A stretch of 64,000 nt of DNA from Leucosporidium creatinivorum. Lineage: Eukaryota > Basidiomycota > Microbotryomycetes > Leucosporidiales > Leucosporidiaceae. The notes under the pieces are model-generated. The model had not been told where the DNA came from. It saw only the letters and a list, made by a program, of their open reading frames with translations, and did not search any database. The stretch lies in assembly GCA_001600635.1 (NCBI GenBank), contig BCKL01000010.1, forward strand, positions 336,747-400,746, given 5' to 3'. A program made the position numbers and the translations under genes. Positions 3,500 to 43,641 of the stretch are shown in pieces. Position 1 is the first letter of the stretch, and each line of letters begins with the position of its first letter.

Positions 3500-4055
3500 A
3501 TGCGATTCACCCTCCTCCTCGCCCTCTCTGCTCCCCTCTTGGCTCTCACCTCCCCCGCTCCAATGCGTCAGGCGGGCGATGTAGCCCGCCAGCTGTCGTT
3601 CGACGCCCAACTCGCCGCCGAGCGTGTGCAGGCCTACCTCACCTCCACCGACGAGGACGACGACAAGTGTCCCGACTTGGTGGTCAGGTGTGTCAAGGAT
3701 GGGGATATCACAAAAGTGATTGGTGATGTGAGTTCCTGTCACAGGCCGAACGGGTGGCGCTGGTCGCCCGGCCCCGAGCGACGGATGGAAGCTGACAGGT
3801 TGCTGTGGGACAGATCGGGGAGCAGGGCTTCTGCAAGGAGGGCTTGAAGTGCGTGCAATGCCATAGTAAGAAGAACTCGTGCGTTTTCTCTCCTTCCTTC
3901 CTTTCGCTTCACCTACCATCGCCGAGCTCCGCTGACCCCCTCTCTTTCTCCCTCACTTCCCTCATCCACCGATGTCATACAACAGCCTCGAGTGCAACGC
4001 CAAGTACCTCAAGAAGTGCGCGGGCAAGTGCGAGGGATGGGGCAGCCCTATCTAA
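3500..4055 (+). CDS. Small secreted cysteine-rich protein, unknown function
   Basis: Three exons (3500-3727, 3814-3878, 3986-4055) join in phase to 120 residues. The N-terminus is a clear signal peptide (MRFTLLLALSAPLLALTSPAP). It is followed by an acidic spacer with TDEDDDK and a C-terminal half with eight cysteines: KCP, RC, FC, KC, QC, EC, KC and KC. An even number of Cys in a short exported protein suggests four disulfides. The branch site GCTGAC precedes the first acceptor. I recognise no family. Size, export signal and Cys density fit the loose class of fungal small secreted proteins (effector-like or cell-wall associated); that is inference only. Confidence 0.72.
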
Positions 4056-10309: not shown

Positions 10310-11929
10310 ATGCTACCCTCCTCACCAGTCGACGTACTGGTCCGCCTCTCCCTCTTCCCAACTCATTTCTCCGCTACCGCATACCTCGTGTCGCTCCTGG
10401 CGCTGTCTGTGCACTATTTAGTAGTCGTCCAGCTATGTGGATTTGCTACTCGACCGGCCAGCCACCTCAGCAAAGACGAAGCCAGGCTACAGCAGCTCAA
10501 GCAAGGTGATTTCGAGGACGCGCCGCTGCCCGCGCCGAACGTGACCTTCTGAAGACGGAGGAGCTGACCGGAGCGTCTGAAATTGCAGGGAAAATGCGAT
10601 CATGGATTCTAACGGGCACTGCTGCTCTCATCATGACCCTCGGCTCACTCCCTTTCACCTGGGACTTGTTGAGGTCGGGGCTGGACGTCGCGCAAGTGCA
10701 GCAGCGGAGCTACCTCTCGCAAGGGCTCGTAGGGTTCTTCATGGCTTACTTGAACCTTGTGAGTAGCTGCTGCTGACGCGTTCGAGTGTTCGGAATCGCT
10801 CGGCCTGTAGCTGACCGACTGTTTTCGGCTCTCAGGACCTCATCATCGGCTGCCTGCATTATCGCTCACAAGTGTCGGTTCTGACGGGCTGGATCCATCA
10901 TTCGGGATACACGTTACTACTTTGGGTCCTCCTTCGGTGCGTTAAGTCTCACTGTCAGCGAGCAGCGCTGAGCCGAGGCTGACCCGACCCGTCCTTCTCG
11001 TTTCGCAGCCGAGGGCTCTCGCATGTGTTTGCTGGAGCTGCTATCATGGAGCTACCGACCTTCGTGCTCGCTCTGTCCATGCTCGTTCCCGCAACAAGGT
11101 GAGTCGGAGGCTCACATTGCCTGCGCCGAGAAATCGGCGGCTGACCCTCGACTGGCTCGCTCGCAGGAACGACATGGTCTTCACGGTGCTCTTCTTCATC
11201 ACTCGCATCCTGTATCACTCGGTTCTTCGTGAGTGTCGACAAGGATCAGTGATGCGAGCGGCAAGCTGACCCGCCTTCTCCGAGCAGTGGTCGTCTACTT
11301 CTCGGCTTACGGTCGAGCGAACGGGAGCGGACTGGTCGAGCTTGCTGGCGAGCCTATTTCTACATGGATCCCAGTGAGCTGCAAACGAGCACTCTCGTGG
11401 GTCTCGACCAACACTGACCGCTACCCTTCAGGCAATTGGCCTCACCCTCGCCGCTCCTCTCCACGTCTCCTGGTTCACCACCTCCACCAAAGGCATGCTC
11501 CGTCGTCGCCGAGCTGCCCGGCTCGCTATCTCACCTCTCGACGCTCTACCAGCTAAGGCTCCCACCCCTCGCTCCCCTCTTCTCCTCCCCCAACGACCTC
11601 GCCTCGTCTCTCTTGCTTCCTCCTACCTCGCCTCCCCCCGTCCCTCCCTTCTCCGTCTTCGCACTTCGTCAACAACTGGAGCTTCGCCTCGTCGCTACAA
11701 CTTCGAGAAAGAGGTCACAGACTACTTCTCTCGCCTCCGGACGACCTTGCCCATGCCCACAGCGGCGCAGGACTGGCTCGCGAGGGATGAGAACGACGTA
11801 CTGAAGGCGCAGGCCGTGTTCCCCATTACGCAGTTGAGGATGAGGGCGGGGAAGGGTGGTGATGATTTGAGGAGGTTGGGTGGGAGGGTGAGGAGAGGCA
11901 TGGGAGCGATTGCTGGCTCGCTCGCTTAG
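10310..11929 (+). CDS. TLC-domain multispanning membrane protein
   Basis: Seven exons (10310-10505, 10589-10758, 10836-10936, 11009-11098, 11167-11228, 11288-11373, 11432-11929) join in phase to 400 residues. Hydrophobic segments occur near residues 15-45, 70-85, 105-125, 135-155, 160-180 and 185-205. The core has the TLC-type signature (TRAM/LAG1/CLN8): DLIIGCLHYR, GWIHHSGYTLLL, ELPTFVLALSML and FFITRILYHSV. TLC proteins act in the ER or Golgi and include ceramide synthases. This one looks like the TMEM56/TLCD type rather than a LAG1 ceramide synthase, because no Lag1 HH-x6-D motif was noticed. The C-terminal 160 residues are basic and probably cytosolic. The substrate is unknown. Confidence 0.82.
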
Positions 11930-13035: not shown

Positions 13036-15219
13036 ATGGCTTCTCTCATCAACCTCGCCCTCGTGATGGCTTCTGTGACCCCGGCGGTCATGGGCCATAT
13101 GTCAATGTTCCTTCCCTCGATGTATGGCGTTGGGCAGAACTTCGCCTATGAGTGTGAGTGCGCCTTTGGTCGGCGGCGCCCGACATCGCGCTCGGCGGGG
13201 CTGGCGTCCTGCTCGGAAGCGACTAGCATCGTGAGGCTGACTCGGCCTTATCATCATAGACTGGGACCCGGTTGTGCCCCTTGGACCTGGATGGATGCAG
13301 CAGGACGAGTGGTGGTTCCGGTGAGTCGATTTCGGCGTTGAGCAGGCAGGGTCGAGCGGACGTTGACTTTCTCTCTGCAGCGGACCCGAGTCCCGCAAGC
13401 TCAAGGCTGACGCGGGAGCAGTCACTGAGCTCCAAGCTGGTGGATCCATCATGATCGAGCACGCCTGCCACGTCGGTGAGCCCTCGTGCCGTTTCCCTCG
13501 CCGTCTCCTCGCCGAACTGACCATTTTGTCGTCCCACAGCTTGGACAGAGTATGGTAGCTCTACCACTACTCCTGGATCTCATCTTGGTGAGTGGAGGCT
13601 CGGACGAGGATCTTCCGCGTCGACTTTTTCGCGGGGGGTTGCCTCCCTCGGCGATGCTCGCCGCTCGTTAGGCCTCTTCACCTGCCTGCCTGTGGTCGCT
13701 GACTCCGTGTCGCGTTTTCTTTTCCTGAAGACGCATGTCCCGGAAATCCTGGTGCGTGTTCCGTCTTCTCCCCCCCTTACGACGTGCGATTCAGCTGTTG
13801 CACAAGTCGACGCTTCGAACTGCGCTGACTTTTTGCCCTCCCACAGGCGCCTACCACTCTGGAGACCCCAATGCCGATGACGTGGACCAGAATCTACTTT
13901 CTGGATGCGCCCTCGCTATCGCTGATGTCGACGACATCGAGAAGGGTGAGTCGGCAGGCTTTCGCCGAAGTCGAGTTCGGCGCTGACTCTCTCGTCCTCC
14001 GCAGTCACCATGGACAACCTCGCCATCTTCAGTGTTCAGCAAAAGTGTGTCGGACAGAAGCAGATCAACTACGACATCCCCGCCGCCATGCCTGCTTGCA
14101 CCGGCGAGAAGTGCATCTGCGGATGGTGTGAGTCGCTGCTCGGCTGTCCCTCTCTCCCGATCAAGACTGACCCTCACCCACTCGTGTACTAGTCTGGCTC
14201 GCCAACAACGGAACGGCGAACTTTTACATGACCGCCTTTGACTGCAAGATCACTGGCGCCACCTCGACCGCCAAGATTGCTGCTCCGGTCGACCCTACCT
14301 GGTGCGATCCCGCCGAGCTCGCTGCTGGAACGTGCACGACAGTTGCTGGAGCTAAACGCCCTCTCTACGCCTATAACTACCCTTCCAACATCGTCTGGAA
14401 GGGCAACTGGGACAGGCCTGGATACGTAAGTTCGGCTTTCGCTTTCTCTCCCTCTGTCTCCTTGCCTCTCCTTCTCTGTACTCTTGTACTCGTGCTGATG
14501 GATCGGATCCATCGATGGTTGCAGCACAACAACTGGAGCTTCAAAGACGGTGCACAAAACGAGTAAGTCGCGCTGTAGATCTTCTCGGCGTTCCCCTGCT
14601 CGGGTTTGGGCGGTCTGAGCGCCGCTGAGGCTCTGCTGCCCCCGCTGGGAGTGATCTGGGACTGTTTGCTGACTTGCCCTCCGCTCACAGCATCTTCGAG
14701 GTCGACACTCAAGCCGCCGCCAGTTCTTCGAGCGCTGCCGCTGCTTCACAGTCCGCCGCTTCGGCGTCGTCTGCTTCCGTCGCCTCGGCTCTCCAGGCTT
14801 CCATGGCTGCCCAGCTCGCTTCACGCTCGGCTCAAGGTCATGTTCCTAAGGCTACTACGTGAGCTAACTATGCGTGGTAGTCCAATTTTGCCGCGAGAAG
14901 CTGACTTTCCTCCCCTTTCCTTAGCACCGCCGCCCCATCCTCTGCCACTCCTACAGTCGCTGCCGCCAGCACTGACGCCCTCGGACAAGTGTGGCACATT
15001 GTTACTCAAGCTGCCGCCAAGGCCAAGGCCACCGCCAAGTCGCGCAAGAGCTGGAAGGCCAAGAACTCGAAGCGCCACCCTCGCGATTTCGTCGAGGGCG
15101 AGGAGCAGAAGGAGGACACCGACGACAGCTACCCCGACGCCAATGCTGAGGAGCTCTCCAAGAGGTGTTCGGGATTGGATCACAGCTGCGAGTTGGCCGC
15201 CGATGTTCTCTTTGATTAG
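13036..15219 (+). CDS. Secreted AA14-like copper monooxygenase (LPMO-like)
   Basis: About a dozen exons encode roughly 420 residues. A 20-residue signal peptide ends in AVMG, directly before His (HMSMFLPSMYG). Cleavage there would expose the N-terminal His needed for the copper brace of lytic polysaccharide monooxygenases. The order of blocks matches AA14-type sequences as I remember them: DEWWFRG, an AHAC-like IEHACHV, CPGNPGAYHSGDP with the second His near mature residue 98, LLSGCALAIA, FSVQQKC, CICGWFWLANNG, NFYMTAFDC, and SFKDGAQNDIF. The C-terminus is an Ala/Ser-rich linker and a basic/acidic tail ending in a CSGLDHSCEL pair of Cys. Members are exported and bind or oxidise wall polysaccharides; activity here is inferred. 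A truncated second copy lies at 27636-28876. Confidence 0.72.
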
Positions 15220-27635: not shown

Positions 27636-28876
27636 GAAGCAGACGACGCCGAATCGGCGGATTGCGAAGCGGCGGCAGCGCTCGAGGAACTGGCGGCGGC
27701 TTGAGTGTCGACGTCGAAGATGCTGTGAGCGGAGAACAAGTCAGCAAACAGTCTCCCAGCTGGAGTAGCAGAGCCTCAGCGGCGCTCCGACCGCCCAAAC
27801 CGAGCCGGTGAACGCCGAGAAGCTCTGGAGAGCGGCTTACTCATCTTGTGCACCATCCTTGAAACTCCAGTGGCTGTGCTGGAATTGTTAATGAATCCGA
27901 TCCATCAGCACGAGTACAAGAGTACAGAGAAATAGAGCGAGAAAGGACAGAGAGGGGGAGAAAGCGAAAGCCGAACTCACGTATCCAGGCCTGTCCCAGT
28001 TGCCCTTCCAGACGATGTTGGAAGGGTAGTTGTAGGCGTAGAGAGGGCGCTTGGCGCCAGCAACTGTCGTGCACGTTCCAGCAGCGAGCTCGGCGGGATC
28101 ACACCAGGTAGGGTCGACCGGAGCAGCAATCTTGGCGGTCGAGGTGGCGCCAGTGATCTTGCAGTCGAAGGCGGTCATGTAAAAGTTGGCTGTTCCGTTG
28201 TTGGCGAGCCAGACTAGTACACGAGTGGGTGAGGGTCAGTCTTGATCGGGAGAGAGGGAAAGCCGAGCAGCGACTCACACCATCCGCAGATGCACTTCTC
28301 GCCGGTGCAGGCAGGCATGGCGGCGGGGATCTCGTAGTTGATCTGCTTCTGTCCGACACATTTTTGCTGAACACTGAAGATGGCGAGGTTGTCCATCGTG
28401 ACTGCGGAGGACGAGAGTCAGCGCCGAACTCGACTTCGGCGAAAGCCTGCCGACTCACCCTTCTCGATGTCGTCGACATCAGCGATAGCGGGCGCGCATC
28501 CAGAAAGTAGATTCTGGTCCACGTCATCGGCATTGGGGTCTCCAGAGTGGTAGACGCCTGTGAGAGCGGAGAGTCAGCGCGGCTCGGCGGCGAGGACTTC
28601 GGCGAGCGCGATGGTCGTGGGAGCATGATGGTCATGTACCTGGGTTGGCAAGGTACGCGGTAAGTTTCGAGTTTGGGTCGTAGTAGAGCTGTTGTAATGC
28701 GTCCAAGCTGAGGTGAGCGGAAGAGGTCAGTTCGGCGAAGAGACGTTGGCGGAAACGGCAGCAAGGCTCACCGACTTGGCAAGCGTGCTCAATCATGGTG
28801 GATCCACCAGCAGGAAGCTCGGTGATTGCGTCCCAGTCTGTCTTGAGCTTGCGGCCCTCGGGCCCGCTGCAGAAGC
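27636..28876 (-). pseudogene. Truncated second copy of the AA14-like monooxygenase gene
   Basis: On the minus strand, 28876 to 27636 matches the gene at 13036-15219 from its third exon (GPEGRKLKTDWDAITELPAGGS, then IEHACQV) to the Ser/Ala linker (IFDVDTQAAASSSSAA). It lacks the first two exons, so it has no signal peptide, no N-terminal His and no DEWWFR block, and it lacks the whole C-terminal tail. Homology stops abruptly at both ends. The middle (about 27990-28510) is nearly identical to the other copy, introns included: the intron after CICGW differs by a single base over about 60. The region near 28640-28720 is much more diverged and reads AWTHYNSSTTT against AWTEYGSSTTT. No start codon fits, so it is called a pseudogene. 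Confidence 0.8.
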
Positions 28877-31000: not shown

Positions 31001-33355
31001 CTAAGCCCTGCTCCCCGCTCCCTCGCTCTTCCTCCCCTTCCTCCACTTCTTCAACTGCCCCTCGCTCTTCCGAGTCCTAACCACTTGCTCGAGGTCCCAA
31101 TCCACCTGTATCCCGACACGCAACAAACGAAGTGGAAAGCACCGGTCTCAGGGCCGCGCTCTTCTTTTTGACCAGAGCGAGATGGGCAGGAGGAGGAGGG
31201 GGGCGACGCACCGAGTCGTCCGCTGCTTGTAGCTGCGAGGGCATCGAGCTGCTGCCGAGGAGTGCCTCACTTGCTCGAGTACGGAGGGCGCCCCAGAATG
31301 ATGGAGTGGAGGAAGGAGGGATGCCGAATGAGTTGGGATCGAAGCCCGGCGGCGGGGGTGCTTGAATGGGACGACGCTGCTGCTGACGACTACGTTGACG
31401 CTGGTGGTGGGGTCCTCCTTCATCTTCCGAAGACGAAGAGACGTCATCGTACTCCCTTCTAGACGACTCCTCCTCACCCCCAGCGCCAGGAAAACCCGCC
31501 AGTCCGCCGAGCGCGAGACCACCGAGGGCAAAGCTTTGATAGCCCGAGGCTGTCATAGAGGGATGCTCTGGAGTGCTGGAGGCGAGGTCCGAGTCCGAGA
31601 CGACGTGCCGAAGGGTCCTGAGCGCTTGTTTGCTCCTTCGGCGGTCGGTCGATTCGCGGAGGGCGGATTGCTCGTTGACGGTAGCGGGAGAGGGTGCTGA
31701 GGATTTGCGAGGAGTGTCGGGGCGTGGTGGATAAGCAGCACTCGAGGGGTTGGCGGATTGATGTAAGAGAGTAGCGGGGGAGGCGGAGAGGGTCGCTACC
31801 TCGCGAGAGACCTGGTCGACCCATTGCTGAGTATGCGCGACGAAGCGCCGTTTCCGCTCGAGGGTGATGGTGTCGTCGCTACCCGCTTCGCTGCCGTCCT
31901 CGTCCAGCAGCTCCTCGACGTCATCGCCTTGCGGCGCGACGGCTACATCGCCGACGACAGCGGCGTCGGCCTTCCAGAGGGAGAAGAGGCCTCGAAGGGA
32001 GAGCATGCTCGTCTTGTGCGCGAGGGAGAGAGGTGGGGCGAGTGAGGAGGGTGATCCGAAGGCATTCGAGTCGGAGAAGGCAACGGAGGAGGTGACCGAG
32101 GTGGAGTGCTCGGCGAGGGGGTGAGGTTGAGGCGCGGTGGGAAGGGCGAGGCCGGGGATGGGAATGGCGGTGGAGGTAGGAGGGGCGACTCGGAGGGTGG
32201 ACGTAGGGGTGATGACTCGCACGTCGGCGAAGCCAGAGTGCTCGAGCATCTGCAAAGCGAGAAGATCGTCAGCGCGAGGAGGGCTAGGCGAGACCAGCGA
32301 AAGCTCACCTCTTGCATCGAGCTGTAAGCTTGATCGCCTCTTGCAGTAGTGCTTGGTCGTTCCGCTGACTTGGACCTCGACAGCGCAGCATAGCGATCCT
32401 TCCTCAGCCGTTCTGTCGAGCCGCCCGGCGCGCGAAGAGGGGAAGCCGAGGTTTGTCGCGGTGGGGTCCTAAGGTCGTTGACGGAGCGACGCTTCGTAGG
32501 TGCGCGGAGGGAGTGGCCGTGAGGCATGATGGTAGCGGAGGAGGCGCTACTCGAGTAGAGGTCGTCGCTAGGCGAGGAGGATTCGATGGCGGGCGGGGAA
32601 GGGATGGCTCGGCGGCCGTTGGTCATGTCGCCCAAGCTAGCCTTCCTCCTAGCCTGCTGTAGCGCAGCAGCGGGACTCCTGCCCTCCTTGTCGGTCGATC
32701 CTGCTCCAGCGAGATTGGCGAGCCATCGTTTGCCCTTCTCGACGCTGCTCGGCGTTCCTCCTCCTCCTTCCGCTTGTCGACGCGCCAGCACGCTCGCCCG
32801 CTTCATCTCGGTCTTCCGTTGCTCGACCGTCTGTAGCTTGGTCTGGGGAGCGAGAATGATGGACGACCGACGAGCGCGTTGAGGATCCTCCGCCGTGCTC
32901 CAACGCGACGGTTTGTTGTTGGCTCGACCGCTCGGCTTGAGGGAGGAGGTCGGAATGTCGCTTGGGATGAACGTGGGGCGATCTGAGCGACGTATTTTGG
33001 TCGACTTGGAGGGAAGAGGCGGTACGGCAGCTCCAGCGGCCGGCTTGGGTTTCGAGTTGAAGGCGGGGACGCTGGCCGCTCGGGAAAGCCCTGGACCAGC
33101 AGGCGGCGACTGGGCGCGCTCTCGCGAGTTGATGGGACTGGTAGTTGATCGTAGAATGAATGGTTTGATCTTGGCCGATTGACCCGCCGGCGCTGGGGCG
33201 AGCGAATGGGAGGGCGAGACTGCCAGAGCGCCTTCTGAGCTGGAAGTTGGGAGTTGAGCCGTACCGCCGAGGACTCGATGAGGGGCATGAGCGCGTCGCC
33301 GTGGTGGTGAAGCTTGTGCAAAAGGCGCGAGCGAGGCTGCAGCGGGTGAAGCCAT
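31001..33355 (-). CDS. Ser/Pro-rich basic protein, unknown function
   Basis: Three exons (33355-32309, 32249-31143, 31105-31001) close in phase to 752 residues. The last intron is only 37 nt, and removing it gives a clean Lys/Arg-rich C-terminus (VDWDLEQVVRTRKSEGQLKKWRKGRKSE). Without splicing the frame ends soon after in unrelated residues. The N-terminal half is Ser/Pro/Arg-rich with many potential phosphosites. A conserved-looking block is TVEQRKTEMKRASVLARRQ, followed by EKGKRWLANLAGAG. In the second half, ERKRRFVAHTQQWVDQVSREVATL and PSFWGALRTRASEALL look helical. LALGGLAGFPGAG is hydrophobic but short. Probably a disordered scaffold or adaptor; function not assigned. Confidence 0.65.
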
Positions 33356-33876
33356 CGTGTTGCCTCCCAAGCTGGGACCCGGTTGAGTGACCTCGCGACT
33401 TGGTTGTTTGCAGGTGAGGTGGAGGGCGATTGGAGGTGTATGTAGTGAGGTGTACGCGCGTAACGGGTCGTCAATCGTAAGGTGAAGTCGTGAAAAAGTT
33501 GGACGAGAGGTGCACAAGTGAGTGGAAGGAGAGCAAGCAAGCTCCAGGCAATTCGCTCGAGGCTCGGGCTTTGAGGAGATCGCAGGTCAGCTGATCGGCT
33601 ACATGCCTCTCGCCAGGAGCGAGCATATCACCATTCCTATCGACTGCATCCGAGCGAACTGCATCTCTTTACCTCGAGCACTTTGACTGCCCCCCACACC
33701 CTTCACACCCTTCGCCGAGCTGGCCTGCTCGCTAAACTCGAGCGAAGGCGGGTCTCTCGGGGTCCACCTCTCTCGAGTGAAGGGAGAGTACTACTGAACG
33801 ACAGGTATTGCAGGGTGGGAGCGGTCACTATGTACTAAGATCAAGAAGCTAAGCCGGCGCCGAAGCTCGGCGCTCC

Positions 33877-35342
33877 TCACTTCTGCTCGTCCTTGAGCTG
33901 GGACTCGAGGGCAAAGAGACTCTTGGCCGTGTCCACGATAGACTGCTCAAACTGGATCCACTTGATACCCAGCTGCTTCTCCACCTTGCTCGAGTCGGTG
34001 CCAAAGTGCTCGGGCATCTCGACCTTGTCGACCTTGGGCAAGCGGTGCTTCTGCTCGGGGAAGTGACGAGCGATGATCTCGACAACCTGGGAGTTGTCGA
34101 AATGTCCAGCAATGCTGAGATAGCGCTGACCCTTGGCGACCTCCTCGGTGGTGGCGAGGACATGGATTTGAGCGATATCGCGCACGTCGGTGAAAACGGG
34201 GAAGGAGGTCGCGGGCAGCTCCTTGGCGTCGATGACGGACCAGACGGCTCCGGCAGAAGTGTTGAGCGAGGCCATCGACTCGATGACTTGAGAGGGAGGG
34301 CCGAGGATGAGGGGAGGTTGGACGGTCGAGAGGGCGAAGGAGGGCTGTTCGGCGAAGGGGGGCAGAGGTCAGCTGAGGCTCTCTAGCAGGTGAGTACCGC
34401 GGCAAGAGAATGTCGAGGGGAAGCCAGAGATGGAGAGTTTGAGGCAAAGAGACAGCAGCTCACCTTCTCATTCTTGACGAAATCCCAGGCGGCGTGCTCG
34501 GCGAGGGTCTTGCTGGCGCAGTAGACGAAGGCAGCGCTGTCCGACTTCTTGGCCTCGTCGTAGGTGGCAGGGTTCCAGTCGTCGTCGCTGAGAAGCCCAG
34601 CGAGTCAGCGTCCAGCGTCGTGAGCAGCAGCAAGCGAGCGAGACTCCATCGCCGAAGCTGCGATCGCCGAGCGTGTGACGTTGAGAGAGCAGACTCACGA
34701 GTAGGTAGTGCCGATAGCGGGCAGCTTGCTCATGTCGAGCACAGCGGCAAAGGAGGAAGTAACGACCACCCTCTTGACCGACGACTCCTTCTTGCACGCC
34801 TGCAGCATCTGCCGAGTGCCCTCGATCGCCGGCTGGAGCATGTCCCGCTCGTTATCCTTGACGTCTGTAGTAGCAGCAAAGTGAGCTCTTGTGTCGTATA
34901 GCAGGCTTAAGCCGAGTATACCTACCGTAGTGGAAGGGCGAAGCGGTGTGAGCGACGATAGTCACTCCCTTGACGGCCTCGTCGAAGGCGTTGGCCGCGA
35001 CGATATCCTTGACGATCTGTGGGGATGTAGTAGAGGATCAGTTGATAGTCCTGCGGCACTTTGCTAAACTTCCCGCCCATCACCGAGCTGGACTCACGAC
35101 AAACTCGATCTGGTCCTTGAACTGAGGGTGCTTCTGCACCCAAGCATCTCCCTTCTCCTGCGAACGGACAGTTCCACGGACGCTATAGATAAATAGCTGT
35201 TCAGCCTGCGTAACATAGCTCAATCTTATGCAGCCAAAGCTCACCGGAAGCCCTTCTCGAGATAGGCGAGGCAGACAGCAGTGCCGAGGAAACCAGAGGC
35301 GCCAGAGACGAGGACGAGGTCGTTGGTGGTAGAAGCAGACAT
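33877..35342 (-). CDS. NAD(P)-dependent SDR reductase, left copy
   Basis: Six exons mirror those of the right copy (39433-40898) base for base, so the encoded 343-residue protein is identical. The N-terminal nucleotide-binding motif is VSGASGFLGTA, and the active site has TSSFAAV for Ser and YCASK for the Tyr-x3-Lys pair. TVQPPLILGPP and the C-terminal substrate region are typical of extended short-chain dehydrogenases of the dihydroflavonol-reductase/methylglyoxal-reductase (Gre2-like) type. These reduce carbonyl compounds with NADPH in the cytosol; the substrate here is unknown. The whole 887-base promoter region up to the RPL24 fragment is also duplicated, so this copy should be expressed like the other. 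The two copies point away from each other. Confidence 0.85.
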
Positions 35343-36229
35343 TGTTGGTGAGGAGAGACGAGACGAGAGAGACGAGTGAAGTGAAGGAAGGAGAGAGAGA
35401 GAGGCTGCCTCGAAGTTCTTCTTTCAGCCTCGGTTCTCGGACTCGGCTTCGTCATGCAACGAAGAAAGTGCGGGGGTGGAGCGCGGTGGAGGTGGCTTGG
35501 AAATGGGTGGAAGGAGCGCTCGTTACAGTCAGCGCGAGGGTTTCGAGCTTCTCCTCGCCGAACAGAATGTCCGAGGTTGGTCGAGGGTCGGCGACCCCTC
35601 TCGGCTGGCTAACCTTCGCCGAGGGATAGCAGAGTTCGCTATATAGGTGCAAAAGCAGGCTGCAGGAAACCTGGCGACGCTGTCGACGAGTAGGAAAAGG
35701 TTGAATGTATCAGACTGCCTCTCGGCGCATCGAAGGGCTGCTCGGCGGTCGTCTCTCTTCCTGCCTGCCGGCTGCGAGCTGAGCTGTGGACAAGCCGAAG
35801 GTCGAAGTAGGTTGGGCGCCTGGCTAGCTGCTAGCTGCTTCCGATTTTCCTGGGAGTAGCGAAGGACATACCATCGCACACGAGCTGCAGCTGAGCTCCC
35901 AAAGCCAGCCTCGGCGCTCGTCTTGTGCAGCAGCTGGCTCTCGTATGGCCTTCCCAGCAGCTCAGAACCGGAGCGAGACTGCCCCCAACATGTGCATCTG
36001 GCGTTTCGTATAGACGCTGAGAGAGACCCGGAGCGGAAGCAAGAGAGCAGACCAGTCTGACCTCGACAGCGACCCTTCGCCGAGCGGCCCGAGCCGGTCG
36101 ACCAGTCACCGCCGCCAGCTCCAGCCGCCAGCTCCCTACTCTCATTCCTCGCGTGGAAAACTCCCAGAGCAATACACCGCATCGGCAATTGCACCACAGC
36201 TCGAAAACAAAAGCTCCCCCTCTGAGCCT

Positions 36230-36442
36230 TTAGCTTCCACTGGTTCCTCCAACCTTGCCCTTGGGTCCACGAGCCTGCTTGGCGGCGGTGGGCTTGGGGA
36301 CACCGGAAGGAGACTGTTGTGAGGGAACGAGATCAACTTCAAGTTCGGCGATGGTCTCTCGACAACGCCGAAGCTCACCTTGATGGCCTTCTTCGACTCG
36401 GCAGCCTTCTTCTTCTCCTTGCCAGCGGCGAGGGCAGCGGCC
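36230..36442 (-). pseudogene. RPL24 3' fragment (last two exons only)
   Basis: Exons 36442-36379 and 36313-36230, with their intron, match the last two exons of RPL24 at 38333-38545. Everything upstream is missing: the arm ends within the preceding RPL24 intron, just beyond the acceptor. Three of the four exon differences change residues (Thr to Ile, Ala to Ser and Arg to Ser, the last just before the stop) and one is silent. Without promoter, start codon or the rRNA-binding N-terminal domain it cannot make a functional L24. Confidence 0.9.
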
Positions 36443-36454
36443 CTGTACGGTAGC

Positions 36455-37749
36455 CCAGCGCAGCAGCAGTGAAAGAAGCGCGTTGGATACGTGTGAGCCG
36501 GCGCGCCAAGACGAAGCTAGGCCAGCGCGGTGCGCAAGAGTAAGAGTAAAGATTGCTCTCATGCTGCGCCGAGCAGCTCTTCTCGTCTCAAGCACTCTGC
36601 AGCAACAGTACCTTACTGCTCGTCGCCGCAGAGGATCGGAGACTGGTACTTAAGTAGGTTTGAGGAGACTGAACAGACTCACAGCAAAAGCGCAGACAGC
36701 AGCGACACGCTGTCGGTGCTGCTCGGCGACAGTTGAGCCTCCGCATGTGCGCTTGCTTCGGTGACGACGTAGCGCCACCCGCGCAGGTGATACATCTGAA
36801 TTGTCAGCCATGATTGCCTAGCAACCCATCTGTCGCTTCTCTGGCCCTTTCCGCCCCTCGAATGAGCTCAGGAAGGGCTCGGCGAACGGCAACGTCCACC
36901 TTACGAGGGTTGCAGCCGAGCTTGGCTCTCCCAGAGCTCACCAGGATGCAGCATCATCTACATAGCTGATCAAACGAGTACATCAGTCATCGTCGTTCGC
37001 GCTGTTCTCGTGCAGGAGGGGCGACCGGCTCGGCGCTCGGTCGAGCTGGAAATGTAGTCTTATGGAGCGGCGGAGGAGGAATGAGCTAGCCGAGTGCCCA
37101 CAAAACTCTTTGTGGGATCAGAAGACCAAGAAACTGGCTGCAGGGAGATGTGACTCCTTTTCGGATTTGGAGGAGGGCGAGACGACTTGGCCCAGCGAGA
37201 GCAGCTTGCTTGCTTTCGACGTTTCTCTAAGCCCCCTTTCAGGCAAGCTACTGTTCCGCTACAGCACCGTACGACTGCACACATACCCCTCTACTCGACT
37301 ACACTACCCTCCAACCAACCATCCAAAGGGAGCAGGAGCAGCGGGAGGCGGAGATGATGAACACTTCGTCGCTACCCAGCTCACAGTGATGGGCCTTCGG
37401 GCCCAGCTGCACTCAACCTTTCGAATCAACTACGACTCAACTCGGGTCCTGATCTGCTACTGTTGCGCCTGCTACCAAAGGATGGGAGGGGGAAACCAGG
37501 CTCGTGTGAAGAGTTTGCTGGAGGAGCGAGAATGAGACGCTGGAGGGCTGTAAGAGCACAGCGGGAGTGTAGAGGGAATGTAGGAGGGATGTGCGGATCG
37601 ATCGCGGAGGCTGTCGGGCTACAGGGAGGGACACAGCGTTATGCCCTGGGGAACCGCTGTCCGGACGCGGCAAGCTAACCTCTCGCCCTCTTTCCTCCCT
37701 CTCCCTTCGCGTCTCGCTGCACCGCAACACCTACAATAGACTCGCTAAA
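36455..37749. other. Spacer of the inverted repeat: RPL24 upstream region
   Basis: Single-copy DNA between the arms. No gene was recognised in its first 1.3 kb. It contains CTCGACTACA at 37294-37303 and a pyrimidine-rich stretch at about 37680-37740, which look like the leader of RPL24. Some frames are open for up to 150 codons but are low in coding character. Confidence 0.4.
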
Positions 37750-38545
37750 ATGAAGGTGGAAACTTGCAGCTTCTCTGGGTACAAGATCTACCCCGGAAAG
37801 GTGCGTCGAATAGGCTCGGAGCTCTCGGGCTTCTGTACGGGAGGGGCAACTACTGACTCTACACCATCACACTACAGGGAAAGCTCTACGTCCGCTCGGA
37901 CTCGAAGCTCTACCGGTCCGCCCACTCCCCTTGATCCTCCACCATCGCTCCCCCGACTGACCTCCCCTTGCCTCTCCCTTTCCCTCCACTCGCCTCTCTA
38001 CTACGACGATCCTACCAACAACAGCTTCGTGACCTCGAAGGAGGAGTCCCTCTTCCTCCAGCGCAAGAACCCCCGCAAGATCGCCTGGACCGTTGTCTAC
38101 CGCCGTGTCAACAAGAAGGGAGTCACTGAGGAGGTCGCCAAGAAGCGCTCGAGGAAGACGGTCAAGTCCCAGCGTGGAATCGTTGGTGCCGATCTCTCGT
38201 CCATCTTGGCCAAGAGGAACCAGAAGCCCGAGGTCCGTGACGCCCAGAGGTGCGTCGCGTTACTCGTCGCCGAGGAGGTGGAGCTGCTGGAGGGGAACCG
38301 GAGCTGACCGATCGCGTTCTGCTATCGTACAGGGCCGCTGCCCTCGCCGCTGGCAAGGAGAAGAAGAAGGCTGCCGAGTCGAAGAAGGCCACCAAGGTGA
38401 GCTTCGGCGTTGTCGAGAGACCATCGCCGAACTTGAAGTTGATCTCGTTCCCTCACAACAGGCTCCTTCCGGCGTCCCCAAGCCCACCGCCGCCAAGCAG
38501 GCTCGTGGACCCAAGGGCAAGGTTGGAGGAACCAGTGGACGCTAA
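37750..38545 (+). CDS. RPL24: 60S ribosomal protein L24 (eL24)
   Basis: Five exons (37750-37800, 37878-37915, 38025-38249, 38333-38396, 38462-38545) close in phase to 153 residues, normal for eL24. The N-terminus [27 protein letters not shown] is the diagnostic zinc-ribbon-like start, followed by [23 protein letters not shown] and [11 protein letters not shown]. The tail is Lys/Ala-rich. The protein belongs to the large ribosomal subunit and helps subunit bridging. The gene straddles the inner end of the inverted repeat: exons 4 and 5 are inside the right arm, exons 1-3 in the single-copy spacer. This intact copy is presumably the original, and the left fragment the derived one. Confidence 0.95.
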
Positions 38546-41080
38546 AGGCTCAGAGGGGGAGCTTTTGTTTTCGAGCTGTGGTGCAATTGCCGATGCGGTG
38601 TATTGCTCTGGGAGTTTTCCACGCGAGGAATGAGAGTAGGGAGCTGGCGGCTGGAGCTGGCGGCGGTGACTGGTCGACCGGCTCGGGCCGCTCGGCGAAG
38701 GGTCGCTGTCGAGGTCAGACTGGTCTGCTCTCTTGCTTCCGCTCCGGGTCTCTCTCAGCGTCTATACGAAACGCCAGATGCACATGTTGGGGGCAGTCTC
38801 GCTCCGGTTCTGAGCTGCTGGGAAGGCCATACGAGAGCCAGCTGCTGCACAAGACGAGCGCCGAGGCTGGCTTTGGGAGCTCAGCTGCAGCTCGTGTGCG
38901 ATGGTATGTCCTTCGCTACTCCCAGGAAAATCGGAAGCAGCTAGCAGCTAGCCAGGCGCCCAACCTACTTCGACCTTCGGCTTGTCCACAGCTCAGCTCG
39001 CAGCCGGCAGGCAGGAAGAGAGACGACCGCCGAGCAGCCCTTCGATGCGCCGAGAGGCAGTCTGATACATTCAACCTTTTCCTACTCGTCGACAGCGTCG
39101 CCAGGTTTCCTGCAGCCTGCTTTTGCACCTATATAGCGAACTCTGCTATCCCTCGGCGAAGGTTAGCCAGCCGAGAGGGGTCGCCGACCCTCGACCAACC
39201 TCGGACATTCTGTTCGGCGAGGAGAAGCTCGAAACCCTCGCGCTGACTGTAACGAGCGCTCCTTCCACCCATTTCCAAGCCACCTCCACCGCGCTCCACC
39301 CCCGCACTTTCTTCGTTGCATGACGAAGCCGAGTCCGAGAACCGAGGCTGAAAGAAGAACTTCGAGGCAGCCTCTCTCTCTCTCCTTCCTTCACTTCACT
39401 CGTCTCTCTCGTCTCGTCTCTCCTCACCAACAATGTCTGCTTCTACCACCAACGACCTCGTCCTCGTCTCTGGCGCCTCTGGTTTCCTCGGCACTGCTGT
39501 CTGCCTCGCCTATCTCGAGAAGGGCTTCCGGTGAGCTTTGGCTGCATAAGATTGAGCTATGTTACGCAGGCTGAACAGCTATTTATCTATAGCGTCCGTG
39601 GAACTGTCCGTTCGCAGGAGAAGGGAGATGCTTGGGTGCAGAAGCACCCTCAGTTCAAGGACCAGATCGAGTTTGTCGTGAGTCCAGCTCGGTGATGGGC
39701 GGGAAGTTTAGCAAAGTGCCGCAGGACTATCAACTGATCCTCTACTACATCCCCACAGATCGTCAAGGATATCGTCGCGGCCAACGCCTTCGACGAGGCC
39801 GTCAAGGGAGTGACTATCGTCGCTCACACCGCTTCGCCCTTCCACTACGGTAGGTATACTCGGCTTAAGCCTGCTATACGACACAAGAGCTCACTTTGCT
39901 GCTACTACAGACGTCAAGGATAACGAGCGGGACATGCTCCAGCCGGCGATCGAGGGCACTCGGCAGATGCTGCAGGCGTGCAAGAAGGAGTCGTCGGTCA
40001 AGAGGGTGGTCGTTACTTCCTCCTTTGCCGCTGTGCTCGACATGAGCAAGCTGCCCGCTATCGGCACTACCTACTCGTGAGTCTGCTCTCTCAACGTCAC
40101 ACGCTCGGCGATCGCAGCTTCGGCGATGGAGTCTCGCTCGCTTGCTGCTGCTCACGACGCTGGACGCTGACTCGCTGGGCTTCTCAGCGACGACGACTGG
40201 AACCCTGCCACCTACGACGAGGCCAAGAAGTCGGACAGCGCTGCCTTCGTCTACTGCGCCAGCAAGACCCTCGCCGAGCACGCCGCCTGGGATTTCGTCA
40301 AGAATGAGAAGGTGAGCTGCTGTCTCTTTGCCTCAAACTCTCCATCTCTGGCTTCCCCTCGACATTCTCTTGCCGCGGTACTCACCTGCTAGAGAGCCTC
40401 AGCTGACCTCTGCCCCCCTTCGCCGAACAGCCCTCCTTCGCCCTCTCGACCGTCCAACCTCCCCTCATCCTCGGCCCTCCCTCTCAAGTCATCGAGTCGA
40501 TGGCCTCGCTCAACACTTCTGCCGGAGCCGTCTGGTCCGTCATCGACGCCAAGGAGCTGCCCGCGACCTCCTTCCCCGTTTTCACCGACGTGCGCGATAT
40601 CGCTCAAATCCATGTCCTCGCCACCACCGAGGAGGTCGCCAAGGGTCAGCGCTATCTCAGCATTGCTGGACATTTCGACAACTCCCAGGTTGTCGAGATC
40701 ATCGCTCGTCACTTCCCCGAGCAGAAGCACCGCTTGCCCAAGGTCGACAAGGTCGAGATGCCCGAGCACTTTGGCACCGACTCGAGCAAGGTGGAGAAGC
40801 AGCTGGGTATCAAGTGGATCCAGTTTGAGCAGTCTATCGTGGACACGGCCAAGAGTCTCTTTGCCCTCGAGTCCCAGCTCAAGGACGAGCAGAAGTGAGG
40901 AGCGCCGAGCTTCGGCGCCGGCTTAGCTTCTTGATCTTAGTACATAGTGACCGCTCCCACCCTGCAATACCTGTCGTTCAGTAGTACTCTCCCTTCACTC
41001 GAGAGAGGTGGACCCCGAGAGACCCGCCTTCGCTCGAGTTTAGCGAGCAGGCCAGCTCGGCGAAGGGTGTGAAGGGTGTG
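38321..41080. repeat. Right arm of a 2.76-kb inverted repeat
   Basis: Reverse complement of 33695-36454, with five mismatches in the first 220 bases and none noticed beyond. It begins inside the third RPL24 intron and ends at GGGTGTG (41074-41080), just before unrelated sequence starting ACGCGG. Contents: last two exons of RPL24, an 887-base intergenic region, the complete SDR gene and about 180 bases of its 3' flank. Confidence 0.95.
39433..40898 (+). CDS. NAD(P)-dependent SDR reductase, right copy
   Basis: Six exons (39433-39530, 39593-39677, 39759-39849, 39911-40076, 40188-40311, 40431-40898) join in phase to 343 residues. Residues 8-20 carry the Rossmann glycine motif (LVSGASGFLGTAV) with Ser where many relatives have Thr. 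KRVVVTSSFAAV and YCASKTLAEHAAW supply the catalytic Ser, Tyr and Lys of extended short-chain dehydrogenases. The best match in memory is the dihydroflavonol-4-reductase-like group that includes fungal methylglyoxal/isovaleraldehyde reductase Gre2. Cytosolic, NADPH-linked carbonyl reduction is the likely activity. No targeting signal. The gene lies downstream of RPL24 in the same orientation, and its copy at 33877-35342 is identical. Confidence 0.87.
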
Positions 41081-41646: not shown

Positions 41647-43641
41647 ATGGCCTCCACCGCTGCCGACGTTTCCTTCTCGCGCTACTCCTCGCTCCTCCCT
41701 TGCCCCGGCGTCCCTCTACCAGCCAAGTTCGACTCACTCCCAGTCCTCACTCGACCTCAAATTGCCGCCAAGATTGCTGCAGGGCAACTGCTGGTCGTCC
41801 ACACTCCGCTCGTCTACCGCATCCCTCCCGCCTGGCTCAATATCCACCCCGGCGGAAACCTCGCTATCCTACATTACGTCGGCCGTGATGCTTCCAACGA
41901 GATCGAGACGTACCATACGGGTCGGACAGTAGCGGAGCGGATGGCGCGTTGGGTAGTTGGAAAGGTCGAGGTCGGCGAGGATGGATGGAGGGATATGGTG
42001 CCGCCGGTGCAGCTCGGCATGTGGCCGATACCAGTGCCCAAGATCACCTTGACGCATCATGGCGATGAGAAGGAGGGCGCGACCGAGGCGGCTAAGGAGG
42101 AGGAGGTCAAGCAGAAGGGGCCGCTGTTGAGGAAGGGCGACGCCGAGGGCAGCTGGCTGCTCAACCCGGGCATGGTCGATCCGCCATGCGCACCCTACGA
42201 AGATCTCCCTCTCACCCCTTCTTACCAAAACCATCTCCGGCAATCCCTTCGCGGCCTCCACACTCGCATCCAAACCCTCGGCCTCGACACCCCTCCGCCA
42301 TACCTCTCCGGCTACGCTCCTTCCCTCGTCATCTACGTCAGCCTGGCCCTCCTCTCCGGTTGCCTCTACTATCGAGCACACACCACACTCGACTACGTCC
42401 TCGCCGCCGTCGCCCTCGGCGGATTCTGGCATCAAGTCACCTTCGTCGCGCACGATGCTGGACACACGGGCTTGACGGGTGATTGGTACGGCGATAGGGT
42501 ACGAGGGTTGCTCATTGCCAACTGCATGGGGGGCATGAGCATTGGTTGGTGGGCCGATAATCACAACGTCCATCATCGTACGTACTTTCGTCGCCTTACT
42601 CCTCCGCCGAGGCTGACTCCCTCCCGCTTCGCAGTGGTGACCAACTCGCCGGAACACGACCCCGACATCCAGCATCTTCCATTCTTTGCCATCAGCAATA
42701 AGTTCTTCGACTCGTTGCGAAGCTCTTACCACAAGCGGGTCTTGCACTTCGACGCCTTCGCACGCACCGTCCTTCCTTACCAGTGCGTTTTGCTGCTGCC
42801 CGATGGAAGTTCATCGCTGACTCGCGCTTGTACGCAGACACAAGCTTTACTACATCATCATGTGCTTCGCCCGCGCCAACCTCTTCGTCCTCTCCTACAC
42901 CTTTATGCTCAAGAGCTTCCCTGCACGCGAGTCGCAGCTCTTCAAGCTGCGGATGATGGAGATCGCCGGGATCGCTTTCTTCTGGACGTGGTTCGGCGCT
43001 GTCCTCCGCAACATTGATGGCACAGGCAACGCCATCCTCTACCTCCTCGTCAGCTTCGCCGTCACGAGCCCTCTGCACGTTCAGGTGAGCTCCGAGCGCT
43101 CTCCCTGCTTCTCTCGCTCATGGCTAACTCCTCCTACCTCCAGATTGTCCTCTCTCACTTCTCGCAACCCGTCTCTGTCACCTCCGACATGATCCCGCAC
43201 ACCGAGCTCCTCGAATCGCACGCCCACCGCCAACTCCGAACCACAATGGACGTCTCCTGCCCACCCTACCTCGACTTCCTCCACGGCGGTCTCAACTTCC
43301 AAACTCCCCATCATCTCTTCCCTCGCATCCCTCGGTTCAGGTTCCGTGCCGTGGCGAAGGAGGTGGCCAAGTGGGTCCAGGAGGAGCAGGAGTTGGTCAA
43401 GGATGGGATGTGGAAGGGCGAGAAGCTTCAGAAGAATGAGGGGCTCGTGTACAAGCACATGACGTTTGTGGAGGGCAATAAGGATGTGTTGGGAGTGCTG
43501 AAGGATGTGGCGGATCAGGTGCATTCGCTTCGCTCCCTCTCCTCGAGATCGGCGCTGACCTTTCGCAATTGCTCGCAGGTCAAGCTACTCGCAGCGGTAG
43601 CTGAAGCCGACGCCAAGGGCGAGTTGAGTCATGAGCATTGA
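41647..43641 (+). CDS. Cytochrome-b5-fused sphingolipid delta-8 desaturase
   Basis: Five exons (41647-42577, 42635-42782, 42838-43084, 43144-43518, 43579-43641) join in phase to 587 residues. The N-terminal cytochrome b5 domain has the haem motif HPGG (NIHPGGNLAIL near residue 67). The membrane desaturase domain has the three His boxes HDAGH, HNVHH and QTPHH; Gln replacing the first His of the third box is the hallmark of front-end desaturases. The order b5-H1-H2-QxxHH is that of fungal delta-8 sphingolipid desaturases, which act on the ceramide long-chain base in the ER on the way to glucosylceramides. A first intron splits the codon right after HNVHH. A delta-6-type fatty acid desaturase cannot be excluded by motif alone. 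Confidence 0.88.

Follow-up and report, generated by a model that had tools for sequence, protein, structure and literature searches.

A probable inverted duplication of a Gre2-like reductase gene around RPL24 in the basidiomycete Leucosporidium creatinivorum

In Leucosporidium creatinivorum two identical copies of a reductase gene lie in long inverted arms on either side of a unique spacer, and one of the arms completes the gene for ribosomal protein eL24 (RPL24). The reading we favour, with a probability of about 0.6, is that this is a real inverted duplication, that its arms have been homogenised by ectopic gene conversion, are very young, or both, that inversion of the spacer is tolerated, and that the genome carries two copies of the reductase. 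On this reading the palindrome would be of a known kind, the conversion-homogenised inverted repeat, found here in a fungus and with a twist of its own in that one arm completes a gene. The window referred to below is the whole stretch of DNA analysed, 64,000 nucleotides of contig C10. The survey of other duplicates covered the window plus 200 kb of flanking contig, 264 kb on C10, and the genome searched comprised 27.7 Mb in 63 contigs.

Anatomy of the arms

The earlier note had described two arms, 33695-36454 and 38321-41080, that pair as x and 74775-x. A check of every position confirmed this pairing, with no insertions or deletions and with five mismatches, at 36235, 36302, 36313, 36383 and 36450. 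A repeat finder returned the same pair, longer by 7 bases (to 36461/38314) with the addition of 3 mismatches. The match is too long to be due to chance. Identity ends abruptly at both ends, and the DNA just beyond 33695 and 41080 is unrelated. The RPL24/SDR locus is composed of two long inverted arms, a unique spacer and unique flanks, with the following features.

33695..36454, no strand: left arm, the probable copy, pairing with 38321-41080
38321..41080, no strand: right arm, the probable source, contiguous with the intact RPL24 and pairing with 33695-36454
36235..36454, no strand: inner 220 bp, with all five arm differences
36455..38320, no strand: unique spacer of 1866 bp, holding the first three RPL24 exons and some 1.3 kb ahead of them
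33877..35342, minus strand: left SDR gene, an extended SDR, Gre2-like reductase (predicted), 6 exons, 343 aa
39433..40898, plus strand: right SDR gene, 6 exons, 343 aa
37750..38545, plus strand: RPL24 (ribosomal protein eL24), 5 exons, the last two in the right arm
36230..36442, minus strand: truncated RPL24 copy with an open frame, made up of the last intron and the two final exons
31943..33586, minus strand: left unique flank, a long open frame
41647..43017, plus strand: right unique flank, a gene with cytochrome b5 and fatty-acid desaturase domains (Pfam; the desaturase match is below the cut-off in the piece tested)

The spacer, 36455-38320, has no match elsewhere in the window except at the arm ends. 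When the genome was searched with an arm, the two arms were recovered together with one 49-bp, 88% match on contig C8; the search sets a lower bound, and elsewhere it was able to miss a partner of 93% identity. A transposable element or mobile inverted repeat was rejected as a candidate because no dispersed copies appeared in this search, within the same bound.

Each arm holds a complete, outward-pointing SDR gene with an identical promoter, as had been claimed. The exons of the right-hand gene are at 39433-39530, 39593-39677, 39759-39849, 39911-40076, 40188-40311 and 40431 to the stop, and the coding exons of the two genes are identical. The domains recognised are Pfam 3Beta_HSD/Epimerase, and the protein is related over its whole length to solved GRE2 and fungal ketoreductases. 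By relationship the reductase is a Gre2-like extended SDR, with its activity predicted from sequence. The five best matches, 60-63% identical, are from Microbotryomycetes sp. NB124-2, JL201 and JL221, Rhodotorula taiwanensis and R. pacifica; among the matches listed, the closest full-length reductases have about 62% protein identity, and these are best hits of unproven orthology. The distance from the RPL24 stop to the reductase ATG is 887 bp. Since identity of the arms spans the introns and this 887-bp promoter, and the closest relatives stand at about 62%, constraint does not explain the arm identity. An ancestral adjacency of RPL24 and the reductase was considered and rejected, the locus tags of the two genes not being adjacent in the 10 species tagged in both protein listings. 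Linkage of the two is possible in Microbotryomycetes sp. JL201, in which both are on a contig of 506,918 bp.

The ribosomal protein gene had been placed between the arms. It does lie inside the palindrome, but it straddles the border of the spacer and the right arm rather than occupying the spacer alone. Its exons (37750-37800, 37878-37915, 38025-38249, 38333-38396 and 38462-38545) encode a protein that matches solved eL24 chains, and its best matches are in Phenoliferia, Sporobolomyces and Microbotryum; together with the reductase matches these place the host in the Microbotryomycetes. The inner breakpoint of the duplication is in RPL24 intron 3, 12 nt ahead of exon 4, after which the left arm gives way to unrelated sequence. 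Searching the organism's own genome found a single complete RPL24 and RPL24 exons at the arm locus only. The truncated left copy is distinguished by T125I, A127S, R153S, one silent and one intronic change. At the final residue, where the left copy has S, 24 of 25 aligned relatives have R, so at least R153S is derived on the left side; at sites 125 and 127 the alignment was too poor to call the derived state. Because the whole of RPL24 is on the right, and the left has only its last two exons with three amino-acid changes, we take the left arm as the probable copy and the right arm as the source.

Two other arrangements of RPL24 were considered and rejected. A tblastn search for an older second RPL24, once complete within the spacer, yielded only the truncated 3' end. 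As to a fusion gene that would be read out of the spacer into the RPL24 end of the left arm, the upstream part of that strand offers no more than three ATG frames, of 52-74 aa.

Clustered differences, origin and possible spacer inversion

The distribution of the differences between the arms is highly uneven. The outer 2540 bp contain 0 mismatches, and 5 of 5 fall within the inner 220 bp (36235-36454). Under a uniform spread the probability of this clustering is about 3e-6, a figure that applies to a region picked post hoc. At the rate seen in the inner 220 bp, 58 differences would be expected in the outer 2540 bp and none was observed. Identity along the arms is non-uniform, with tracts more alike than under shuffling, again for a region chosen post hoc.

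In the history we propose, the DNA between RPL24 intron 3 and a point just past the reductase would have been copied, reversed, into a position some 1.3 kb ahead of RPL24, in the direction suggested by the retention of the whole RPL24 on the right side. The outer 2540 bp would be alike through ectopic gene conversion, recent copying, or both, and the inner 220 bp with the RPL24 exons would have escaped homogenisation and retained the five differences. The net result would be two identical copies of the Gre2-like reductase, with its dosage presumably doubled. The suggestion that one breakpoint lay in an intron has stood, the intron being RPL24 intron 3; the fold-back or template-switch origin proposed with it found no support at the junctions, which share no more than a base or two. 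The instability attributed to near-perfect inverted repeats applies to palindromes whose arms are hardly or not at all separated; the spacer of this one measures 1866 bp.

A recent replication template switch could by itself have produced the arms, error-prone synthesis near the inner junction having made the five changes at birth, without conversion. Break-induced synthesis is mutagenic near junctions, and junction mutations account equally well for a cluster of changes at one junction only; the unbroken identity of the outer arms is also as expected of a young duplication. This account has to contend with junctions at which no microhomology was seen, and with neighbouring inverted pairs that are old repeats with homogenised blocks, which means that conversion operates nearby. 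We consider it unlikely.

In our preferred history a crossover between the arms would flip the spacer and leave RPL24 complete. Each arm offers RPL24 a usable and correctly oriented 3' end, so a crossover would leave the gene complete and recombination would cost the cell little. Two example crossover points were followed, and either orientation of the spacer left RPL24 complete: a crossover in the outer arms would turn the whole gene round intact, and one inside the shared 3' end would produce an entire gene that carries the residues of the left side.

Selection might also be held responsible for the palindrome, either because two identical reductases help or because inversion of the spacer alters expression of RPL24 or a neighbouring gene. 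Both reductases are intact, their promoters are identical, and RPL24 is complete in either spacer orientation, all of which is consistent with a selected function. The other inverted pairs, in contrast, carry unrelated genes (WD40, FAD monooxygenase, MYND and AA14-like), so no special function of the reductase is needed, and such an explanation appears highly improbable.

Inverted duplicates and probable gene conversion in the surrounding 264 kb

That the palindrome is a singular oddity is not borne out, as further inverted duplicates are found around it. Among self-matches in the 264 kb at E 1e-10 and of at least 100 bp, 13 of 15 were inverted, and at E 1e-6 the count was 19 of 27, the matches in both cases not being independent. 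When copy pairs with matches of at least 240 bp were grouped by hand, 11 of 12 were inverted and 1 direct; one three-copy family supplies two of the 11 inverted pairs and the single direct pair. Clustering at the protein level gave 17 inverted and 6 direct among 23 clusters, with families shared among clusters. Outside the 264 kb, family searches scored part of the candidates (9 of 189 for sugar transporters, 9 of 187 for MFS), and local pairs were judged by eye. Two were inverted (sugar transporters on C13 and reductases on C8) and three direct (reductases on C7, P450s on C13 and short-chain dehydrogenases on C31). A genome-wide excess of inverted pairs was not established by these 2 inverted versus 3 direct local pairs. 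Since direct local pairs occur elsewhere in the genome, the inverted excess may belong to this region or to close copies only.

According to a report cited in PMC4546093, the youngest gene duplicates of Caenorhabditis elegans are mostly inverted; for humans PMC4546093 reports equal proportions, with 66 direct and 77 inverse duplicates in a total of 143. The likeness to C. elegans is that recent local copies are mostly inverted; the differences are that this organism is a fungus, that conversion blocks are seen, and that 264 kb were surveyed (PMC4546093). It can be suggested, though only tentatively, that this lineage makes and keeps its young duplicates chiefly in inverted orientation, that conversion homogenises them on ordinary chromosomes and direct copies are deleted, and that RPL24 is freely invertible with two alternative 3' ends.

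A second inverted pair (H) is present in the window itself.

13816..14777, plus strand: arm 1, a gene with an AA14-LPMO-like domain
27636..28586, minus strand: arm 2

Over the first part, three exons and two introns, the copies are 96-100% identical, and over the later introns 84-89%. A faint extension of the pair was seen at 13374-13570 / 28677-28873.

Base-by-base profiles were made for seven of the 11 inverted pairs, and the longest identical run in each was compared with 2000 shuffles. It exceeded all 2000 in four pairs, namely the RPL24/SDR arms, F, L and M (both halves). For pair B, P was 0.01, and pairs H and J were not significant. Pair F consists of inverted MYND-finger genes (C10 window coordinates -40312..-37218 / -32457..-29350), and a third copy of the family at about -56356..-53719, in the same coordinates, served as an outgroup. 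Between copies 2 and 3, 187 of 993 sites differ, then 2 of 1398, then 33 of 695, which defines a 1.4-kb near-identical block with sharp edges between flanks of 81% and 95%. Copy 1 is different from copies 2 and 3 throughout, by 13-43% per 200-bp bin in the block; because it differs from both there, constraint does not explain the block. An assembler would not merge reads of 80%-identical repeats, so the block must be near-identical in the cell.

Near-100% blocks inside diverged repeats in several pairs point to gene conversion; exchange of sequence between inverted duplicates is thereby shown for this genome. The choice between very young and homogenised arms, as originally framed, is still the main one, and homogenisation has become weightier through the identity blocks of the neighbouring pairs. 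From these blocks we infer that arm-to-arm conversion is likely to be the reason for the identity of the RPL24/SDR arms. Conversion is expected to fade toward the outer edge of an arm. Pairs F and M are diverged at both ends, whereas identity of the RPL24/SDR arms reaches the very outer edge, and for that reason conversion in these arms is not proven.

The identity could, in whole or in part, be the work of the assembler. The short diverged RPL24 3' repeat would then be real, and the left 2540 bp would have been filled in from the right, or less similar arms merged. Four Ns occur singly in the 264 kb, along with two long gaps (865 and 1660 bp), and several of these are inside inverted pairs. 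In pair F the single Ns of the two arms occupy mirrored positions, a picture that merging into a consensus might produce, and such merging may also underlie bases that are distant from unique sequence. A giant palindrome on C13, with an arm of about 57 kb, was found via the sugar-transporter search (C13:1-57050 / 59123-116172, spacer 2072 bp) and extends all the way to base 1 of the contig. Of its approximately 57,050 arm positions 11,380 were sampled, giving 2 mismatches and 1 N, all at most 124 bp from the inner end: these came from 7878 contiguous arm bases, near the spacer, and in three more samples up to the contig's first base 3502 of 3502 positions match. Since the C13 arm stops exactly at the contig end, it may be a fold-back artefact, or it may be an unfinished real palindrome; its mismatch pattern at the inner end is that of the RPL24/SDR arms, which keeps the artefact under consideration. 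However, the RPL24/SDR arms are free of Ns, both outer junctions run without Ns into different unique flanks, and the left RPL24 end has variants of its own, which an assembler would not invent. Diverged inverted pairs nearby (67-97%) cannot be assembly copies, and the 80%-identical flanks of pair F exclude wholesale merging of reads. We judge an artefact unlikely; if it were the cause, gene counts from this genome would include false duplicates. Against the misassembly of a heterozygous inversion, which had also been raised, there is weak evidence in the finding of only one STE3 and one homeodomain gene, as in a haploid assembly.

Known palindromes and further inverted pairs

The STE3 region is on C25 and the homeodomain match on C24. 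As neither is on C10, where the window lies, a mating-type palindrome was rejected. Arm-to-arm gene conversion is well known in the palindromes of mammalian sex chromosomes (PMC8981503). These resemble the fungal locus in having arms more than 99% identical and a unique spacer, and conversion is thought to keep the arms alike, as described in PMC8981503; they differ in that their arms are tens of kb and more, whereas the fungal arms are 2.8 kb and off the mating-type contigs. In humans, recurrent inversion between inverted repeats is described (PMC3961182). The emerin/filamin and other human inverted repeats also flank unique sequence, and their spacer is expected to flip repeatedly (PMC3961182). 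In the fungus, by contrast, the arm itself carries the end of the spacer gene, and the locus is known from one assembly. If the RPL24/SDR palindrome is real, conversion-matched inverted duplicates, best known from mammalian sex chromosomes, occur outside the mating-type contigs in a compact, yeast-like basidiomycete. With several pairs of different age in 264 kb, one of them with a third copy as outgroup, conversion, tract ends and spacer inversion should be measurable in a small genome.

Three further inverted pairs were observed on C10, all given in window coordinates. One consists of a 5' portion of a WD40 gene that recurs in inverted form 1.4 kb away, about 97% identical (-84210..-83885 / -82443..-82121). 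A pair containing an FAD-monooxygenase fragment (105995-108211 / 114191-117330) has diverged ends and an identical middle, and 1660 Ns interrupt one of its arms. The third, a 3.5-kb pair 58 kb apart (98987-102432 / 160490-163932), gave no Pfam match in the frame tested, and contains a 373-bp identical block within strongly diverged repeats.
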